Shown: one piece after another, positions 14,436 to 52,500 of the stretch
Position numbering within the stretch: position 1 is the first letter of the stretch
Layout of the letters: each line of letters opens with the position of its first letter
Origin: Chlorella sorokiniana
Lineage: Eukaryota; Chlorophyta; Trebouxiophyceae; Chlorellales; Chlorellaceae
DNA: 64,000 nucleotides
Reading direction: 5' to 3'
Assembly (NCBI GenBank): GCA_025917655.1
Contig: CP084609.1
Span: forward strand, 1,302,001-1,366,000
Made by a program: the position numbers and the translations under genes
Notes under the pieces: generated by a model
Told to the model about the DNA's origin: nothing
The model's database searches: none
The model's input: the letters and a program-made list of their open reading frames with translations, nothing else

Positions 14436-17400
14436 ATGCAGCTCAACGCCTGGCCGCTGCTCCTCGCTGCCGCCGCCTGCAGCCCAACCATGCGGCAACA
14501 GCGGCGCTGCGGCAGCCTGCGCTTGGCTCTGCTCGTCTGCCTGCTGGCGCTGTCCCATCGCGCAAATGGGCAGGGTGAGTCAGCATCCAGTGGTGCATGC
14601 GGACGGTGTCTGCAGGCAGGGGGCAGCCTGGTGCATGGTGGGGTGCCTGGCTGCACCGCTGGCCGGCGTGGGGGCCGAACCCGACAGGGAGCAAGGGGTG
14701 CAACGGAAGCTCTGATGGTCTCCCTGCTCACGGATCTACACAACACCCTGCAGGCCTCCTAGATATGCTGCTTGAAGGAGCTGGTGCAGCTCCTGCCACC
14801 CCCACCGGCGATGCCACCACCGCCCCCGCCACTGGCGAAGGCCAGCCTGTGACCACCCCTACCACTGGGGAGGGCCAGCCCGTAACCCCCACCCCCACCA
14901 CCGCGGACGGCCAGCCTGTGACTACCCCCACCACTGGGGAGGGCCAGCCCGTAACCCCCACCCCCACCACTGCGGACGGCCAGCCTGTGACCACCCCCAC
15001 CACTGGGGAGGGCCAGCCCGTAACCCCCAACCCCACCACCGCGGACGGCCAGCCTGTGACAACCCCCTCCACTGGGGAGGGCCAGCCCGTAACCCCCACC
15101 CCCACCACTGCCGACGGCCAGCCTGTGACGACCCCCACCCCCACCACCGCGGACGGCCAGCCCGCAACCACCACTCCCACCACTGCCGACGGCCAGCCTG
15201 TGACAACCCCCACCCCGGCCACCACCGCCCCTGCCACCACCACCCCGGCCACCACCACCACGCCCGCTGCTCCAGTTGCAGCTGCTCCAGGGGGCAGCCA
15301 CGCCCGTGGCAGGCGGCGCCACCACCCTCAGCCGCTGAATGCCGGCGAGGTGACGACTGGCACGCCGCCGGTCGCCCTGCCTCCGGGCGCCGACTCGTCA
15401 GGAGGTGGGCGGGGCAGCTGGACTGCGCTGGGAGGGGAAGGGCCTGCGAAGTTGATTGCCCCCGGCACAGCGCCGGAGGGCAAGGGTACCGACACACCGC
15501 CTGCTGCTTGGCTGCCGCTGCCGCCCTGACAGCCTCCCTTCCTGCCGCCCTGCGCAACACGGCGCTTGCAGTCGCCAACGTGGGCACCATCGGCATCGAG
15601 GACCTGCTGCAGCAGGAGGACCAGCTGCCGCCCGCCCCCATGAGCTGGCAGACGCTGCAGAAGGTGCGCTGCCCGCGGGGCATTTGTTTGAGGACCCTGT
15701 GGGTAGGGGGAGGGGGAGCGAGGCTCCGGTGGAAGCGCGGTCCGTGGCCGGGAGACGTTCGTGGCAGGGCGCTGAGATGCCGCGTCCTGCTCCGACCAGC
15801 CTGATGCGTCAGTCGATGCCTCCGGCCCACCACCTCTCCGCCTATGTCACACCCGAACAACCCTGCCCTTCCACACACACTCAGACACACACGCCCGCTG
15901 CCCTGCGCAGGACTGCCAGCTGGTGTTCTCACTGGTGATCCGTGGCTCTTTCATCGCGCCCTTCACCTCGCCCAAGGCCACCGTCATCGCCCGCGTCCTG
16001 CGCGACCGCTACCTGCGCTCCGCCCAACTCCCGACATCTCCGTCGCCGCATTGAACACTTTCCCGGTGCGGGGGAGGGGGTGCCACAGCGGGTGCAGACG
16101 GGCGTGTTGGTGGTGGTGGGGCAGGCGGGCGGCTTGCGCTGCCCGTGGCGGGCACCGCACACCGCACCGACCCATCTTGACGGTGCGCGCGGGCGTGCGT
16201 GTGGTGGCATCCCTTGTTTACCCTCCCCCTTGGCCCTCCCCACCGCTTGCTTCCTGCTGCAGTACCTCTCTTACGACACCATCAACGGCTCGGACCTGGC
16301 ATCCCCCACCGACGAAGCTCTCGCAGCGTCGGGCGCGCTGGGCACCGCGGCTTCGGGCAACCGCCGCCTGCTGGCCCGCGCCGCCGCCTCCCGCCGCCTG
16401 CTCCAGATTGAGAAGAGCGGGGCGGAGCTTAAGATTGTGGTGGCCACTTCCTCTCTGCGCACCGACTCCGAGATTGCGACGTTTGAGGAGGGGGTGGACA
16501 GCGGGCGCATGGCGCGAGACTTCACGCTGGCCGGTGAGCTCCCTTGGATTATGGGGGGAGGGGGGCGTGTGTGTAGAGGGCTCGGGTGGAGGGCGCAGGG
16601 GCGGCGTCCTTGCTCCTGTGTCCTCAGACGCTGTCTGCGCCATGCATGGCGGGAGAGCACCCCGCTGTAGGGGGTGCACCCCACCGACAGATTCCCCGGA
16701 GGGTGGGAGGCAAGGGGGACAGGCTCCCATCCCCGCTTTCGTCCTCATCTCCCCCCTTTCCCCTCCCAGGCATCGACACCGAGAACCTGACCCTGCTGAT
16801 GCCGCCGTACCAGGAGGACCTCATCGGCCCCGGCAACCTGGACCAGGAGGGCAGCGGCGGCACGCAGGTGCACACCGCCGCGCCGCCCGCCCCTCCCGCG
16901 CCCCCGCTCCCCGGGCCTCCGCCAGCCGCACCGCGCTGCTTGCTACCCCCTGAGATTTGAGCCTGCTGAGCCTTGAGCCCTCCCCCCCCCGCCCCTCCCC
17001 CTCCTGCCGTGCAGTCCTGGGTGATTGGCGTGGTGGTGGGCGCGGTGCTGCTCATCCTGCCGGGCCCGCTCTTCCTGCTGGTGCGGTGGCGCAAGCGCAA
17101 GAACCGCGAGGCGCGCGAGGTGCAGGCGGCGGAGGCGGAGGCGGCGCGGCAGCGCATGCACTCCAAAATGATGCGCCCGGGCAGCAAGAGCTTCACCATC
17201 CGGCCGGGCTCGTCAGCTGACATCATGGTGAGGCCGCGGGGGGCGGGGGGGGAACGGTGCTTGCTCTCTCATGCTGTGATGCTGTGCGGTTTGAGGGGCT
17301 GCCCACTGGCAGTGAGCCGAGGGGTGCTTCTGTGCACGCTTTGCCAGTTGCTTCGCTTGCGCATCACGCGTTGCGCTGCCCGGAGCATCACCAAAGCTCG

Positions 17401-24138: not shown

Positions 24139-27100
24139 CTCGGCCTCGGCCTTCGCCACGCCCAGCAGCACGGCGGCCAGGGAGGCGGCGGCGGCAGGGC
24201 CCAGCTGCTGCTGGGCCAGCGCGCGCAGCACGCCCGCCACATAGGCAGCCACCGCCGCCTTGTCCTCTGCTGCTATCTTGGCGGAGGGCAGCATGCGCAG
24301 CGCCTGTCGCAGCGCGCACAGCGCCAGCAGGCTGAACTGCGGCGGCTCGGCCGCCACGGCGGCGTCGCCGCCACCCGCCGCAGCTGCCGCCGCCAGCAGC
24401 TCCTGCTGCTGCTCGAAGAACTCGTGAGGGCGGCGCAGCAGCAGCAGCATCGCCTCAGACAGGAAGGCAGCCAGGGGCTCGCTGGCGGGGCCGCCGCTGC
24501 GGGGGCAATGGAGCACAGAAGGGCACACTTATGTGCAGGGGCTAATGATCTTGGCAAGCAGAATGCAGGCTGACCACAAACAAGCGGGGTTGCACGAGGC
24601 AGCTCAGAAACACACACACACACAGCGCAACACCAAGAAAAAGATGACTACCCGGTGACCCTCCCCCGCATCCCCGCCCCCACCTGGGCAGCAGGTCCAG
24701 CCAGAGCACCGCCTCCTCCTCGTTGCCGCCAAACGCGCCGCAGCCCAGGAGCCAGCGCAGCAGCCAACCCCGCGCGGCGCCCGCACCGCCGCAGCCACCC
24801 CCGGCCCCGCCAGCAGCCGCAACACCGGCAGCAGCAGCTGGGGGGGCCGGGAGCCGCCCGCCGCTGCGTCCTGCCCCGCCGTTGTCGCCGTCGCTGCGCC
24901 GTTGCTGATGCCTGCATCGGCTTCCGCCCGGCTTCCGCTGCGTCGGCCGCCGCATGCAGTAGCTCCAGCAGCAGCAGCTGGTGGGGCGGACGCAGCGCCA
25001 GCGGCTGCGCCGGCAGCAGGCGGGCGGCGTCCACGTGTGCCTCGGCCAGCGCTGCGGGGAGTGTGCGCTGCCACAGCAGCAGCGCGCGCAGCACGGCGCT
25101 GAGCTGCAGCTCGTTGGCTGCGGGGGCAGCAGGAGGGGAGGAGCCCGGCGGGCACACGGTGTGGTGAGGAAAACCCGATACAACATAAAATTCAGGCATG
25201 AAGCACCAAAAGCGTGCTGTTGCTGAGACGACTGAGCCTGGCGCCTCACCCGCCTCCCAGCCCTCCTTCTCTGCCGCCACCAGCAGCGCCAGCAGGAGCG
25301 TGGGGTCTGGCAGGAGCCGCCGCACACCCGCCCGCAGCCACTCCGCCAGTGCCAGCCAGCCCTGACTGTCCTGCCGCCCCTGCTGCTGCTGCTGCTTCTG
25401 GGCCGCTGCCAGCTGGGCTGCCGCAGCGCAGTCTTGCAGCACGGCTTGCAGCGCCGACAGGCAGCTGATGAGGAGGGAGAGGGTGCCATGCCGCACCAGG
25501 GCACCGCTGTGCTGCAGCCCCGGCTCAGCGCCGCCTTCGACAGGCAAGGGGGAAGCAGCAGCGCAGCAGGGCCTGCGCGCGGCGGCCGCCGGGGGCGGGC
25601 GCTGCGGCGCCGCCGCCCGCCGCCGCGGCCAGCCCGGCGGCGCGGCTGCCGGCAGCAGCTGCAGCAGGCGGGCGGCCACAGCCGCATGCACAAACCAGCG
25701 GCCCGCCGCCGCGCTTCCCGCCGCCGCGCTGGCTGCTGCGGGTTCCAGCGAGTAGGGCAGGGCCAGCAGCAGCGCGGCCGCCACGGGGGCGTCCGCCGCC
25801 GCCGCCGCCAGCAGCAGCTGCAGGTGCGCCGCCGAGTCGGCGGGGCGCAGGCGCAGCAGCAGGCGCAGCAGGCGGCGCTGCCCCGGCTGCAGCTGGTGCC
25901 TGCCGGTCTCCTCCAGGGTGAATCGTGGGGCGCAGGGGGTCGCCGCAGGAGGGGCCACCAGGCCGTGGGCGGGCTGCGTGGCCAGCGCCAGCAGCAGCGA
26001 ATGGGCTGCGGCCGCCGCCTCGCGCGCCCGCCGCCCCTCCTCCTTCCCCCGGCCCGCCCTCCTCCCCTGCCTCGCCCCCTTCTGCTTCCTCCCCTTCCAC
26101 GGCCGCCGCAGCAGCGATGGCGGCCAGCTGCTGCAATGCCGCATCTGTGAACACTTCTGCCTGCGTGGCTGCGGCCAGGCCTGCCCTGGGGCCAGCACGC
26201 GCCGCTGCAGCACCCGCAACACCTGCAGTGAGGAAGGGAGCGCCGGCGGCACGGGCTGAGAGAGCAGCGGTTCTGTGGGGAGGCGTGTCTGGCGGGGAGC
26301 AGACGAGGCAAAAAAAAAAGCGCCGCACCCAGGCAGGGCGTGTTGAGCTTGCTGGGTGGATGCAGCGTGGTGCCTGCTGTGATGCGCTGCAACACGCCAC
26401 CCCTTTAAGCACACAGGTCTCCTGGGAACACCTCCCCGCTCAACCCACCTGCAAACAGCCCCCCACTCAACCCACCTGCAAACAGCCCCCAGCCAACCCA
26501 TCCAACCCACCCACCCACCTCCAGCTGGTGCTCCGGCGGGTCAGCTGCCAGGTGGTGCAGCAGCCCGCCCAGCAGCGGCCGCAGGCGCAGCAGGCGCGCA
26601 GCCAGCAGCGCGTCGCCGGCGGCGGCGCCGCGCCGCAGCAGGGCCAGCGCCAGGGAGGAGAAGGCGGCGCGGGTGGGGCGCTTGAGCGGGTCGCCCAGGG
26701 CCCAGAGCTGCCAGTAGCGGCGTCGGGCGTCCGCGGCGGACTCCCCCTTCTTCTCCCTGCACCAAGCAGACCGTTCAGAGCGGGTGGGCAGCGGGTGGAC
26801 AGGCTGGGAATGCGCAAAGGGAGCGCAAAAGAGGAGCGCACAGACGGCGGAGGGAAACACTTGCAATGGGTGCACGGCCCAGCCCCGCCCCACCTGGGTG
26901 GCCGCGCCAGGCCCGGTAGCGCCGACAGGCTCCAGTCGAAGGCTCGCACAAAGTCGTGCAAGCTGGGGGAGCGGCTGCGCCGCTGCTGGCCGCCAGGTCG
27001 CCGCCGCCGCCGCCGCAGGTCGCCACCACGGCCTCTAACAGGGCCAGGGCGGCGTTGGCCTTGCCGCGCATGTCTGACGACAGGCAGAAGTAGAGGGCCT

Positions 27101-28476: not shown

Positions 28477-29157
28477 TCAGAAGCAGGCAGCAAAGGCCTG
28501 CGCTGCTGCCTGCGCAAACGCGCCGCTGCCCTGCGCCACAGCGGTGGCCTGAGCAGCGGCCAGGGCCTGGCACAGCGGCGCGGTGTTGCTGCCAAAGGCG
28601 TGCGCCAGCGCAGACGCATATGCGGAGGCAAAGCCGCCGCCGGTGGCCAGGGCGGTGGCCAGAGCGTCCGCGGTGGCAACGCCGCTGCCCATGGCGGTGG
28701 CGGTGGCGTGGGCCAGGGCGACGGCGGCGCCGGTGTCGCCGGCGGCGTAGGCGCTGGCGGCGGCCTGCAGGCGAAGGAGGGAGGGTTGAGTGGGCAGCGG
28801 CTGATGTGACACAAGCTTTGGAGGTGGATCATTGTGGAGACCATCAGGCACCCAGCACCTTATACCTCAAGCCAGCACCCAGCATGGCAGCCACCCGCCA
28901 AGCCTTCCGCCCAGCCTGAAACACACACACACAAAATCACACCTGAGCAAGCGCGGCGCCCTGGCCAGAGGCAAAGGCCTGGGCCGAGGCCTGGGCAATG
29001 GCGGTGCTCCCCCGCGGGCAATGGCCTGAGCGTCGGCGGTGGCCAGCGCCGCGCCGTGGCCGGTGGCGACTGCCTGGGCGCGAGCGTCGGCCAGGGCGCT
29101 GCCGTGGCCGCTGGCCTGTGCGTTGGCGTTTGCGGTTGCCAGGGATCCGCGGCCAAT
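28477..29157 (-). repeat. 48-bp / 16-residue coding repeat array
   Basis: About ten degenerate 48-bp units span exons 3 and 4 of the Ala/Gly-rich gene, interrupted by one intron (28765-28942). Units are conserved in protein pattern (Gly-x-Gly, then Ala every second residue) more than in DNA. Confidence 0.8.
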
Positions 29158-29659
29158 CTGTGGGGGATGGTGTGGGGAAGCGTGTTGGGATGTAGAAGGA
29201 GCAGGGGAGGCACCAATCAAGCGAGGCACGCGTGCGTGGCATCGATGTGTCAAGCACGCGCCCATCCGTCAGTGCCGCCACCCCAGCCCCTCACCGCGGT
29301 GGCGTCGCTGTTTGCGATGGCTGTGCCGCGGCCCGTGGCTGCGGCCTGGGAGTTGGCAAGGGCGGTGCCGCCGTTGGCTGCCTTGGCGTTAGCGGTTGCC
29401 ACGGCGGTGGCCAGTAGCTTGCGGCCTGCAAAGGTGGGTGGCGAAGAGGGGTGCTCTCGAGCTTCACCTTGTCTGATGAAATGCAGCGCTTGATCACCAC
29501 CCGGAGTCCCGGCCAGCCACCAGCTGTCGGCACAGCACTACCACCGCTGCCGCCGCTGCTCCCCAACCCTGACTCACTGGCGATGGGGTCAGCAGAGGTG
29601 CATCCAGCAAACAGCACCAGGCAGGCCAGCAGCAGGGAGCAGGCAGGGCAGACCCTCAT
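28477..29659 (-). CDS. Secreted Gly-x-Gly / alternating-Ala 16-residue repeat protein
   Basis: Four exons: 29578-29659, 29295-29425, 28943-29157 and 28477-28764. Exon 1 encodes a signal peptide (MRVCPACSLLLACLVLFAGC). The mature protein, about 210 residues, is almost entirely repeats of about 16 residues. Each starts with Gly-x-Gly and continues with Ala at nearly every second position, for example GHGSALADARAQAVAT, GHGAALATADAQAIAR, GSGVATADALATALAT and GGGFASAYASALAHAF. Only two Cys lie outside the signal peptide, both in the C-terminal part. Introns fall at or near repeat boundaries. Exon 3 is 215 nt. Adding one base at the C5 run 29009-29013 restores the repeat register and gives exactly 72 codons. 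The alternating small-residue pattern predicts beta strands, as in silk or a beta-solenoid. The family is not recognised and the function is unknown. Confidence 0.75.
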
Positions 29660-30378: not shown

Positions 30379-33300
30379 TTAGCGGCCCCCTTGCCGCTGC
30401 AGCAGCCGGCACGTCGCCTTGTGCACCTCCCAGTCGGCCCGGCTGCACGCCTCGCTGCAGTACCGCACCAAGTGGCAGCCTCCGCACCGCCGCCCCCTGG
30501 CCCCCGGATCCCCTGCCAAGTTGGCGCAGCGCAGGTTGGCGCAGCCCAGCTCTGCCACGGCGTGAGCGCAGCGCAGCGCCACTTGCTGCGCCTCTGGGCT
30601 GAGGGGCTGGCGTGGGTGCTGCCGTGGCTGCTGGGCTGGCTCGGCGGGCAGCGCAGCCTCGATGTTTCGCAGGAGTCGGGTGACGGCTTGCACATCAGTT
30701 GGCCTGTCCAGGAGCTGCCGCTGCAGGCCGGGGTCCAGGGCCGGCACTCGCGGGACCAGCAGCTCCAGAGCTTCCAGCACCAGGCTCAGCGGGGCATTCG
30801 CCTGCACAGCAAGCATGTGTGTGTGTGGGTGGGGGGGGCTTCACCGCAGCAGCCCGTCACTTCAGCCTGTTGCCGTTGTGAAGCAGCATGCTGTTGTGAA
30901 GCAGTAAAAGGAACAGCATGGAAGCAGCTGAGAGCTGCGCGTCACACCTCGGCATTGACCTCTGCTGCCACCGCTGCCTGCCTGCCAGTCGTGCACAGCG
31001 TGCGCAGCAGCTCGCAGTCGCCGGCCACAGCCGCGACCGCAGCTGCTGGGACTGGCTCGTGGCACAGCGCCGCGACAAGCACCTCCAGCGCGGGCATGCA
31101 GCAGCTGCCGGTGTGCTGAAGCACAGAGATCTACACAAGGGGGCAGGGCTGTGCAGCGGGATGTCACACAAGCACTGCAGCTACGAAGAGATCACCTGCA
31201 CGGGCCGCACAACCCGCCGTCCCTCACCCCAACACTCGCCTGCAGCAACTCCAACGTCGCTTGCGCAAACGTCGCCGCGACCGCCGCCCCAAGCGGGAGG
31301 CCGCCGCCGCTCTGCAGCAGCCGGCGCAGCAGGTTGCCATCGGGGTGCCTCACGGGGCTGAGCTTGTGCAGCAGCGAGGCGCAGCGGGCCCTCCCGCACT
31401 TCGCCCACTCCTCCAGCAGCTCGGCGTCGCTGTCTGCGCTGCCGCTGGGGAGGGCCCTGGCCGCGCTCAGGGGCAGCGCGAGCAGCGCAGACACGAACAG
31501 CAGCAGCGCGCAGTCCAGGCGCCTGCACAGGGGTTTCCTGCTGCTGGCTGAGCAGCCGCGCGGAGGGAGGGGGCACTGCCATCTGGCGCCAGGCGAGCCG
31601 GACAGGTGGGCGGGCAAAGAGGGGGCTGGGCTGGGCCCACCACTGCCCACCTGGACTGGTCAGGGTTTGTCGCGGCAGAGCGCTCATTGCACTGCTCATA
31701 AAATTGCCAGGCTGTCTCTAGCAGCTCGGCAGCTTCAAAAGCCACGGCCCCGACGGGTGGCGCCATCAGCCGTGGCACCGCCTCGCTGCCCAAGGCCTCA
31801 GCATCCCCCAGGCCTATCGCCGCCGCCACTGCATGTGCGTGGCGGCACGCGGCGGCCAGGGCGGTCAGCGCGGCGGCGCCGTCCCCAGCGCATGGAGGAG
31901 CGCCACGGGCGGCCGCCTCTCGCGCAAGCCCAACAGAGTGGCGAAGCAGGTTAGCCGCAAGGGCGGCACGGCGGCCGTGAGCATCGTAACGGCCACGCCC
32001 GGCTCCTCAACCAGCGTCTGCGCGCCTCCAGCCACGAAGCACGTGTACAGAGCGGTGACGCCATCCCCCACCGCCGCCGCCGCCGCCGCAGTCGCAACGC
32101 CCGTGCCTCCCCTAGGCCTCACAGGCTGCGCCGGCAGGAGGGGCAGCAGGCGCAGCAGCGCAACGACGGCTGTGCAGGCCGCCACGGCTGCGCCGCCGGG
32201 GTCTGGGTGGCGGTCCAGGGCGGGGCTGAAGTCTAGATAGATCAGGCAGGAGGCTGACATCATCCACATCGCCAGCACGTTTTCCCACTGCTGGGGCCAC
32301 CGCCAGAAGGCGCCGCCCAAGCGCGGCGGGTCCTGCCCTACAGCAGGCGGCGCCGCTGCCGCCACGGCCGTCGCTGCGTCGTGCAGCGCATGCGCCATCG
32401 TGCACAGCGTGCTGACCACCGCCCTCAGCAGGCCAGGGGGAGGGTGGTGCCGCCATTCTGCTCGTCCGCTGCATCCCGCATCAGCTCCAACGCCACTAGA
32501 TGGCTGTGCACCAGGCGGGAGTGCACCCGGGCATCAGGTGCCTGCGACAGGCCCCCGGCGACGCTAGCTCAGCGGCACGAAGGAGCACGCTGGGCGTCAC
32601 GCCGCTGCCGCTGCCGTCGCCGCTGCCGTGCCACGCCGCCAGCTCACGCTGCCAGCGCGCTGGGAATGCGATTCTGGCAGTCAGGACGGAGCCTGCCGCC
32701 TCTTCCTGCATCCACGCCGCGATGTCGTCTGGCAGCGGCTGCCCGCCCGGCGTCAGCAGGCCGCAGTAGGCCGAAGCCGCCGCCCCAACCAGCTGGCGGA
32801 GAGCCTCGGGAGCCTCGTCCCTCATGCGAGCCATAGCCTCGCCAGTGCGCTCGTTCATCGTGTTCATCGTGAGCCACGCCACGGCCAACAGCAGCGGCTG
32901 CAGGACCCCGGCCGTGGGCCCGTCGCCGCCGCGGCCTGCATGGGGCGTGCGCAGGGTCGGCTGCTGCTGAGAGGATGCTCGCAGAGCGATGGCGACCGGC
33001 ATGGGACCTCTGACAGGGCAGGAGCATTGCGGCTTGCGCATGCAGCAGGCAGGGTCTGTCAGCCCTGCATGCTGCCGCATGCTGCCCCGCGCCCTGTCCA
33101 CGCCCTGCCCTCACCCTGGGGCCAGCACGCAAAGCGGTGGGCAGCCGCGGAGGAGGCCCGCAGCCAGCCCTGCAAGGAGGACGGCCGCAGCGCCCGGCAA
33201 ACAGCACTCTCTGCACCCGCGCGGCCAGGAGTGAATCGGGCGACACGCAGGCCAACAGCCGCTCCACGCCCAAACCGCTGGAGTACAGCAGCTCGGCCAG

Positions 33301-49596: not shown

Positions 49597-52500
49597 TCAA
49601 AACAGCTGAACCAAGTCTTGCAGCTGCATGCGGCACAGCGGGCACTTGCCCGCGGCCTGTACCTTGGGCAGGCAGTTGGAGCAGAGGCACATGTGGCCGC
49701 ACGGCACGCACAGCACCCGCCTGCAAGCAGCAGGAGGGAAGAGGCGCAGGGTCAGAAGCTGGTCCAGGGCGGTGGCACTGACAGTGCATCGCAGCAGCAG
49801 CACCGCCTTCGACGCGTGCACGGCTGCCGGTTGGCGACCTTGGCAGCAGCCCTGCCTGCCACGCGGCCTCAACGCAGGCCCAAGGCACCCAAAACCACCA
49901 GCTTGCCTGACGTCCGACATGCACACACAGCACTCGTTGTCGGGGCAGAGGGCATCCAAGGGGCCGGCCTGCGCCGCAGCCCCTGCTGCGCCGTAGGAAG
50001 CAGCGGCGGCGCCGCCGGCGCGACGGAAGGCAGCGCCGCCACCTGCGACAGCAGCGGCAGCTCCGCCAGGTGCCCGTTGGCGGGCAGCAGCGGCTGCAGG
50101 CCCGGCAGCGCCAGCTGCGGCGCGGCGGCAGCGGCGGCCGCCGCTGCCGCAGCCGCTGCGGCCGCCGCGGCCGCCTGCTGCTCGCGCCGTCTGCGCCGCT
50201 GCTGCAGCGCGGCCAGCGCGCCCTCCGCCTCCTCCAGCGCAGCCTCCTGCAGGAACGCGCGCAGCGAGCGCGCCTCCGCCAGTGCCGCCTCCAGCGCCGC
50301 CTCGGCCTCGCCCGCGCGCCGCTGCGCCACGCTGGGCTGCCGCGCCGCCACGGGTGGCTCATCTGAGAACAGATCGTCGGGCAGCGCCGCCGCGGGGTTG
50401 GCCCGCAGCTCCGCGGCCTCCTCCGCCGCGCACGCCTCGTCAAAGCCGGGGCCAGCACGTCGGCGGCGCCGTGGCAGGCCGCCGCGAGCGCCGCGCGGCG
50501 GCGCGGGGGCGCGCTGCAGCTTCCCCAGCAGCTTCTTGCCGTACTTGACAGACACCCCGGCTGCAGGGGGCAGGCGGGGCAGCAGGGAGGGCAGCCAGGT
50601 CGGAACAGGTGCTTCTTGGTGCCGCCCTGTGAGCCACCAGCAGAGCCGGGGCGGTGCCGCAGCGCGGCACGGCATGCACCAGCCAGCCGGCCCCGGGTAG
50701 GACCCTACCACACTGCACAACCCGGCAGCGCAGCTGCAGCCGGGCGCCTGGCCCTGCTGCCATCAGCTGCCCTGGGGCCCTCCTGCCACACACACAAACA
50801 CACACACACACACACCTTCCGCCACCCCCGGCATCTGCTCCTCGATGAGCCCCGCCAGGCGCTGCTGCTGCGCTGGGTCGGCGCCGCAGGCCGCTGCCTC
50901 AGCCAGCAGCGACTCCCACTGCCGCCTGCGCGGGGGAGAGAGACAAGCATGTGGGTGGGTGGGTGTGGATGTTAAGGGAGGAGAGGGACATTGGCTCCAA
51001 GCCCAAGACAACGAAACACACGGCCTTGCATGAGCCGGGGCAGGCAAGGGAGGAGAGCAGGCGTTGCAGGAGGCGAGGCACGGCAGCAAGCGGGGGAGGG
51101 GGTGCCAGCGGCGGCGGCCGCAGACGTGCCTGAGCTCGGCGTTGGGGTCCTCCCTCTCTGCGGGCGCCTCCTCGCTGGGCGGCGACCCAGGGTCTTGAGC
51201 CGCGGGGCGGCCCCCGCCGCCGCAGCAGGCGCTTGAGGCGAGCTGTCGTGCCGGCCGTTGGCGGCGGCGCTGGCGCTGCGCTTGGGCCGCCCCTGCCGCC
51301 GCCGCCGTCGGCGTCGCAGCCGTTTGCGGGTGGTGGGCAGGCCGCCTGGGTCGCCGACATCACCACCGCCTCTGACTGCGGGTGCAGCACGGCGATGAGC
51401 GAGGCGAGCGGGCCGCTGCTGGCGGGGCTCAGCAGCCGGGTGGGCGTCGGCGGCTGCACCTGCTCCTCCTCATCCTGCTGCGGCTGCGCTGCTCGAGGCT
51501 GCTGCTGCTGCTTGGCGCTGCCCTGCGCTCTGCCCTGCTGCGTCCGCGGCCGCTCGGGCCGCTGCCGCCGATTCGCCTCGTCGTGCTGCTGCTGCTGCTG
51601 CTGCTGCTCATGCCGAGGGGGCTGCTGCTGGCCGCCCTGCTGCCGCTCGGCTTCCTGCGCAGATGCCGCCTGCTCCTGCGACGCCTTTCCCTGCTGCGGC
51701 GCCGCCTGCTGCTGCTGCTGCTGCTGCTTGGCCTGCTGGCGCTTCTTCGCCTTCTTGCCGCCGCCACCGCCGCCGCCGCCGCCGCCGACCGAAGACGCCT
51801 CCAGCTCTGCCAGCAGCGCCGCCATTGCCGCATCCGCCTTCTGCTGCTGCCGCCGCAGCTCCTGCTCGCTGGGGGCCCCCGCTGCTGTGCGGCCGCCGCC
51901 GCGCCGCCCGCCGCATTCTTCTGCCGCTCGCGCATGCGCTGCCGCTGCTGCAGGCGGCGCAGCGCCTCCGCCGCCCGCGTGTAGCCTTGCTTGGTGGCGG
52001 CCTGCAGGACGAGCAGGAGGAGGGGGCAAGCGCGTGACAGGCTGGCATTAGCGTTGTTGGGCGGCCGTACCAATCTGGGTAATCTGTGGCGATGCAGCGG
52101 TACGTTGCAGTACCGCACCTCCACCGGGTCGTCCTGGGTCTGGGGGTCCACGTGGAAAGCGTCGGCGCCATGCAGCCCCAGCACTGCGCCCCAGGCAGCC
52201 GAGGAGGGGCGGGAACGCGTCGGCAGCACGCAACCAAGCTCCCCAACACCAGCAGGGGCCCCTGCTGCCGCTGCCCTGCCACCGAGGCTGCAGGCGGTGC
52301 TGCCTGCCGTGTTCCCGCCTGTCGACATTGCCCGCGCTTGCCGTCTGCGGCATGTCCCGGCAAGCACCTCTCCCTGACCGGGACGCGTTCACCTCTGCGG
52401 CCTCCTCGCAGACGGAAGCCGCCCCGGGCAGCGGCACGGCACCCCAACCACAGCTGAACAGCCCCCACCTGCAGCTGAACGGCAACGCGTATCAAATCCC

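Follow-up and report, generated by a model that had tools for sequence, protein, structure and literature searches.

What does a green alga make of a protein in which alanine recurs at alternate positions of a short glycine-led repeat, and is the gene that encodes it intact? The question is raised by a minus-strand gene at 28477-29659 of the 64,000-nucleotide stretch of Chlorella sorokiniana DNA analysed here (contig CP084609.1 of assembly GCA_025917655.1, positions 1,302,001 to 1,366,000; hereafter the window). We describe it as a member of a repeat family for which, as a preliminary description of the locus had supposed, our searches (Pfam and NCBIfam, and the Protein Data Bank, PDB, by sequence) gave no match among catalogued families. 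The gene and its two close copies all show the substitution pattern of coding sequence when read in the Ala-x-Ala frame, on both sides of a one-base frame break. Our favoured reading, held tentatively and at somewhat less than an even chance, is a secreted structural protein of the wall or matrix, stacking by its alanine faces and working like a cross-beta silk; its assembly, place and function are what we infer.

The gene has four exons, with the ATG at 29659 and the stop codon at 28477-28479, separated in the splice model by GT-AG introns of 152, 137 and 178 bases:

29578 to 29659, minus strand: exon 1 (splice model), with the ATG, the hydrophobic leader MRVCPACSLLLACLVLFAGCTSA, the start of a short propeptide and the donor GTGAGT
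29295 to 29425, minus strand: exon 2 (splice model and codon-position pattern), with RKLL and the first units of 13-15 residues
29412 to 29423, minus strand: RKLL tetrapeptide directly preceding the first repeat, a possible subtilase-type processing site
28943 to 29157, minus strand: exon 3, with G-x-G/Ala units of 15-16 residues, split by the frame break
29009 to 29013, minus strand: G run in exon 3 with the one-base frame break, located by alignment of the copies
28477 to 28764, minus strand: exon 4, with the last repeats, the C-terminal segment and the stop codon

Read across the break, the product has 238 residues and runs from the leader through DPIAS and RKLL into repeats that continue up to the stop. 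The leader, judged by eye, agrees with the signal peptide claimed before and suggests that the product is secreted. The 210 residues from RKLL onward include 84 Ala, 23 Gly and 1 Pro (Ala 40%, Gly 11%, Ser 7%, net charge +2), contain no N-x-S/T sequon, and have only two cysteines, both in the C-terminal segment of exon 4.

The repeat unit follows the consensus G-x-G-x-A-[LFIV]-A-x-A-x-A-[QT]-A-[LIVF]-A-x. Manual division of the sequence that follows RK yields 13 units of 15, 13, 14, 15, 16, 16, 16, 16, 17, 16, 16, 21 and 17 residues. The three 16-mers quoted in the preliminary description are present letter for letter, and the announced repeat region of about 210 residues is there, but the unit is less uniform than was stated: a length of exactly 16, the commonest, is found in 6/13, with 12/13 between 13 and 17 and a full span of 13-21. 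For position counts we took 12 units of sixteen residues: 6 of the window gene, 3 of the homologue P0001, one of these shortened by one letter, and 3 of the relative C6:121k (both described below); a unit of 15 and all other lengths were omitted. All 12 have Ala at positions 7, 9, 11 and 13, and 11 have Gly at 1 and 3; position 6 is hydrophobic in 9 and position 14 in 8, while positions 8 and 12 are each polar in 11.

When the residues of the 210-residue part were permuted 20,000 times, no shuffle reached the 43 observed A-x-A-x-A starts (mean 12.9) or the 10 glycine pairs spaced by 16 (mean 2.2), and 21 shuffles reached the 8 observed G-x-G. Strict Ala alternation, scored across the window in six frames and per 60 residues, has its top three values (13, 11 and 4) all within this gene; runners-up elsewhere score 3, and the highest value seen in 30 block shuffles of the window is 5. 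By a looser count, a poly-Ala run near 50288 (minus strand) scores 15 versus 14 for the repeat gene. Tandem Repeats Finder lists no DNA array in 28477-29659; the repeat is therefore maintained at the level of the protein.

The preliminary description had treated the gene as single, which it is not. In its own genome (38.8 Mb in 15 contigs, the window being C8:1302001-1366000) two close copies lie on C9, at C9:508k and C9:1042k; judged by their sequences they are certainly copies of the family, and the start and splice site of exon 1 recur in both (L007, L008). A protein collection yielded three matching proteins. P0001, which carries no functional name and comes from a 2.1-kb contig, is clearly homologous, with a leader, RKLL and units of the G-x-G/Ala type; the frame of P0002 runs through an apparent intron between its leader and GRKLLATAVANAKAS; P0003 is the C9:508k copy again. 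Beyond ALAQ, the residues of P0001 look like a translated intron (GTGAG start, CTGCAG end) lying where the window gene has its intron 3; judged from protein letters alone, this intron position seems to be conserved.

A more distant relative in the same genome, at about C6:120.6-122.5k (C6:121k), likewise carries a leader, HRKLLQ and repeats of the G-x-G/Ala type, and in our splice reading one of its exons is exactly 16 residues (GQGSTVANAAAQASAQ) and another 14 (GGAAAQASATAFAQ), both in phase 0. Its repeats as query match the window gene (expectation value, E, 2.9e-7), P0001 as query matches it (E 0.004), and it likely belongs to the family. RKLL itself is kept in the window gene, L007, L008, P0001 and P0002.

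Loci C6:140k, C6:157k, C6:160k and C4:841k have Ala-rich units in common and may be weakly tied to the window gene. A composite query matches C6:140k (E 1.7e-4) and C6:160k (E 0.002), scores which low complexity can inflate. The window gene was absent from the matches to queries taken from C6:140k and the C-terminal half of C6:121k (both at E<=10) and to a C4 query (E<=1), and the C6 and C4 loci were absent from those to the window product (E<=10). C6:140k has in common with C4:842k a Cys-rich tail (E 0.0021), which at C6:140k follows a Gly/Gln-rich linker; C6:157k and C6:160k appear partial. Between 121k and 160k, C6 contains several secreted Ala-rich genes or gene fragments (L031, L053 and L054, within C6:116000-166500); the C4 locus is L073 (C4:838500-844500).

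Among the prokaryote genomes and viral contigs scanned, no relative was confirmed. Pfam gave no match above cut-off for the C9:1042k product, C6:121k, P0001, P0002, the window product or C6:140k, and none at E<=10 for the window product; NCBIfam gave none above cut-off for P0001, P0002 or the window product. The few rows returned by the two databases were all far under the curated cut-off. Among PDB chains searched by sequence (phmmer, E<=1) no match was found for the C9:1042k product, the single query used.

How such a chain would fold and act can be put as a sequence of steps. The leader would direct the repeat protein into the secretory pathway, where a subtilase-type protease may cut at the conserved RKLL and expose the repeats; such processing is plausible because RKLL equals a listed motif, RKLL/RRLL being tabulated among the motifs at which pectin methylesterases of flax are cleaved (excerpted text of PMC4008260). 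Alanine at alternate positions, together with G-x-G turns, would give extended strands with one nearly all-Ala face, and stacking face to face could yield insoluble fibres or layers, of cross-beta or solenoid type, within the wall or mucilage, where the two C-terminal cysteines may cross-link molecules. In its fullest form, which we consider unlikely, the proposal is of a green-algal lineage with a silk-like functional amyloid of its own: a secreted, block-duplicated family, one relative having an exact 16-residue-repeat exon, cut at RKLL and interlocking by Ala faces into a cross-beta layer of wall or mucilage.

The structural evidence is divided. For P0001, AlphaFold2 predicts seven repeats with one beta strand per repeat, at moderate confidence (predicted local distance difference test, pLDDT, block means 72-87), and the nearest solved folds by Foldseek are beta-helices and functional amyloids, with weak scores. 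Several results stand against a cross-beta protein. In that same model 132/262 residues have pLDDT <50, with a predicted template modelling score (pTM) of 0.45, and its structural matches fall inside the range which the tool calls common for unrelated models. Exon 4, modelled alone with three near-identical rows, came out all helical (pLDDT 65, pTM 0.50); residue propensities of the window product lean to helix (1.10 versus 0.95), and its hydrophobic moment differs little between 100 and 180 degrees (0.17 and 0.22). AlphaFold2 is moreover reported, in the excerpted text of PMC11795689, to over-predict beta-solenoids for perfect repeats; the repeats here, unlike those, are diverged. The preliminary description had expected flat beta strands and had taken a helical prediction as contrary evidence; the P0001 model favours the expectation and the exon 4 model, at low confidence, the contrary.

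A secreted Ala-rich helical protein, with helices of about 13-15 residues broken at G-x-G and stacked up and down into a soluble surface or matrix protein, is the strongest competitor, though a somewhat unlikely one. The exon 4 model has six helices (2-7, 11-25, 29-41, 45-57, 61-78 and 81-94), and runs such as SGNAEAIAQATAIAAA in C6:140k and C4:841k look helical by eye. Moments at 80-100 versus 180 degrees (C6:121k 0.27-0.31 versus 0.25, C6:140k 0.24-0.26 versus 0.23, C4 0.18-0.21 versus 0.21) tilt at most slightly to the helical side. Against the helices, the exon 4 prediction is of low confidence and of an isolated exon, the seven-repeat P0001 model consists of strands, its block means rising to 87, and near-perfect alternation of Ala and non-Ala leaves a helix without a distinct face.

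The second part of the question concerns the frame. In exon 3 the repeat runs in one frame before 29009-29013 and in another after it, so the assembly holds no continuous 238-residue frame, a break which the preliminary description overlooked. The C9:508k copy carries the identical one-base break; the C9:1042k copy is continuous there, with an exon 3 shorter by 18 residues. Each copy belongs to a duplicated block that spans at least 2.8 kb (a lower bound, since the alignments run to the edge of the compared slice), which includes one exon of an adjoining gene:

30382 to 30816, minus strand: MYND zinc-finger exon of the adjoining gene (PF01753, E=1.8e-9), inside the block duplicated on C9

It could be that the window copy and C9:508k are decaying pseudogenes and C9:1042k the sole working copy, as the break common to two copies and the open frame of the third would have it. 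We regard this as distinctly unlikely in view of how the copies differ. In exon 4, where both C9 paralogues are 93% identical to the window copy, the three pairwise comparisons give 14, 15 and 14 changes at third positions, 0-1 at first and 3-5 at second; with totals of 19, 20 and 18 the three copies are about equidistant. The ratio of non-synonymous to synonymous substitution rates (dN/dS) for the three pairs is 0.14, 0.24 and 0.19 in exons 1 and 2 and 0.18, 0.17 and 0.09 after the break (Fisher p 1.8e-4, 7.8e-5 and 1.1e-6), and it rises to 2.2-8.1 when exon 4 is read in the two wrong frames. Even the two broken copies, compared with each other after the break, differ by 14 synonymous and 7 non-synonymous changes (dN/dS 0.18). 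Because coding-type substitution persists beyond it, the break is more probably an error of assembly within the G run, or else of very recent origin, than the mark of an old pseudogene; G runs are places where assemblies often err.

A disordered low-complexity protein, secreted into an extracellular polymer without a fixed fold, would suit the 40% Ala, 11% Gly, net charge of +2 and lack of a Pfam domain, as well as the disagreement between the exon 4 and P0001 models. The regular register of the repeat, the few amino-acid changes between gene copies and the one strand per repeat of P0001 speak for order, and we hold disorder to be quite improbable. An ice-binding or ice-nucleating protein is very improbable: the commonest unit length of 16, the one T-x-T-x-T of P0001 and several ice-binding proteins among its weak Foldseek rows (E 1.1 and worse) are set against an array of 13 units only, with 0 GYG[ST] and 1 T-x-T in 210 residues and Thr at six different positions across 7 units.

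Two other features of the window were noted. A 69-base tandem array at 14816-15258 (plus strand) encodes mucin- or wall-like Thr/Pro-rich repeats (TTPTTGEGQPVTPTPTTADGQPV), and the frame around it has no Pfam match at E<=0.01. The frame at 24651-26510 (minus strand) matches the Npa1 domain, ribosome 60S biogenesis N-terminal (PF11707, E 4.8e-5), with 23.2 bits, just above the cut-off of 22.7.

Should the repeat proteins indeed assemble in cross-beta form, a green alga would offer a candidate structural layer made of protein, with a silk-like repeat short and simple enough to study, and the exon-per-repeat layout of C6:121k would illustrate how a protein of this type grows. A term search of the main text of a review from 2023 on the extracellular matrix of green algae returned none of alanine, glycine-rich, silk or amyloid (PMC10762512).

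Compared with known systems, the protein resembles the hydroxyproline-rich wall glycoproteins of green algae and plants in being secreted, of low complexity and expected in wall or matrix. Those glycoproteins have many Ala/Ser/Thr-Pro or Ser-Pro-n motifs, and a protein with a single Pro in 210 residues does not fit among them; the sequon is absent as well. In bacterial ice-nucleation proteins, units of 16 residues marked by GYGST and T-x-T follow one another in tandem; the 16-residue period and the Gly at the unit start are alike, but the likeness drawn earlier does not hold beyond these, as GYG[ST] is lacking, Thr forms no row, and the array is short beside the 65 units of Pseudomonas borealis (excerpted text of PMC9418140). 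With the functional amyloids FapC and CsgA the protein would have in common secreted beta repeats, and these are among the nearest solved folds for the P0001 model, at scores that unrelated models commonly reach; their repeat length and residues differ. The antifreeze protein of the Rhagium beetle is a flat beta-solenoid with small residues between two close sheets, a packing which would fit an Ala-only interior, although the window protein is without its T-x-T-x-T rows. The lacewing egg-stalk cross-beta silks (MalXB1/2, ChryC1/2), as the excerpted text of PMC5485732 presents them, are likewise secreted, rich in the small residues Gly and Ala, of 16-residue periodicity and with Cys near the C-terminus. 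They differ in being Ser-rich animal silks, with a pronounced positive charge in ChryC2 and MalXB2 (same source), where here Ser is 7% and the net charge +2. It is these silks that the protein would most resemble in how it works, but the likeness is one of description and we claim neither kinship nor membership; by the definition given in that text, a small-residue-rich repeat of 16-residue periodicity is what the window gene encodes, with 6/13 units of exactly that length.
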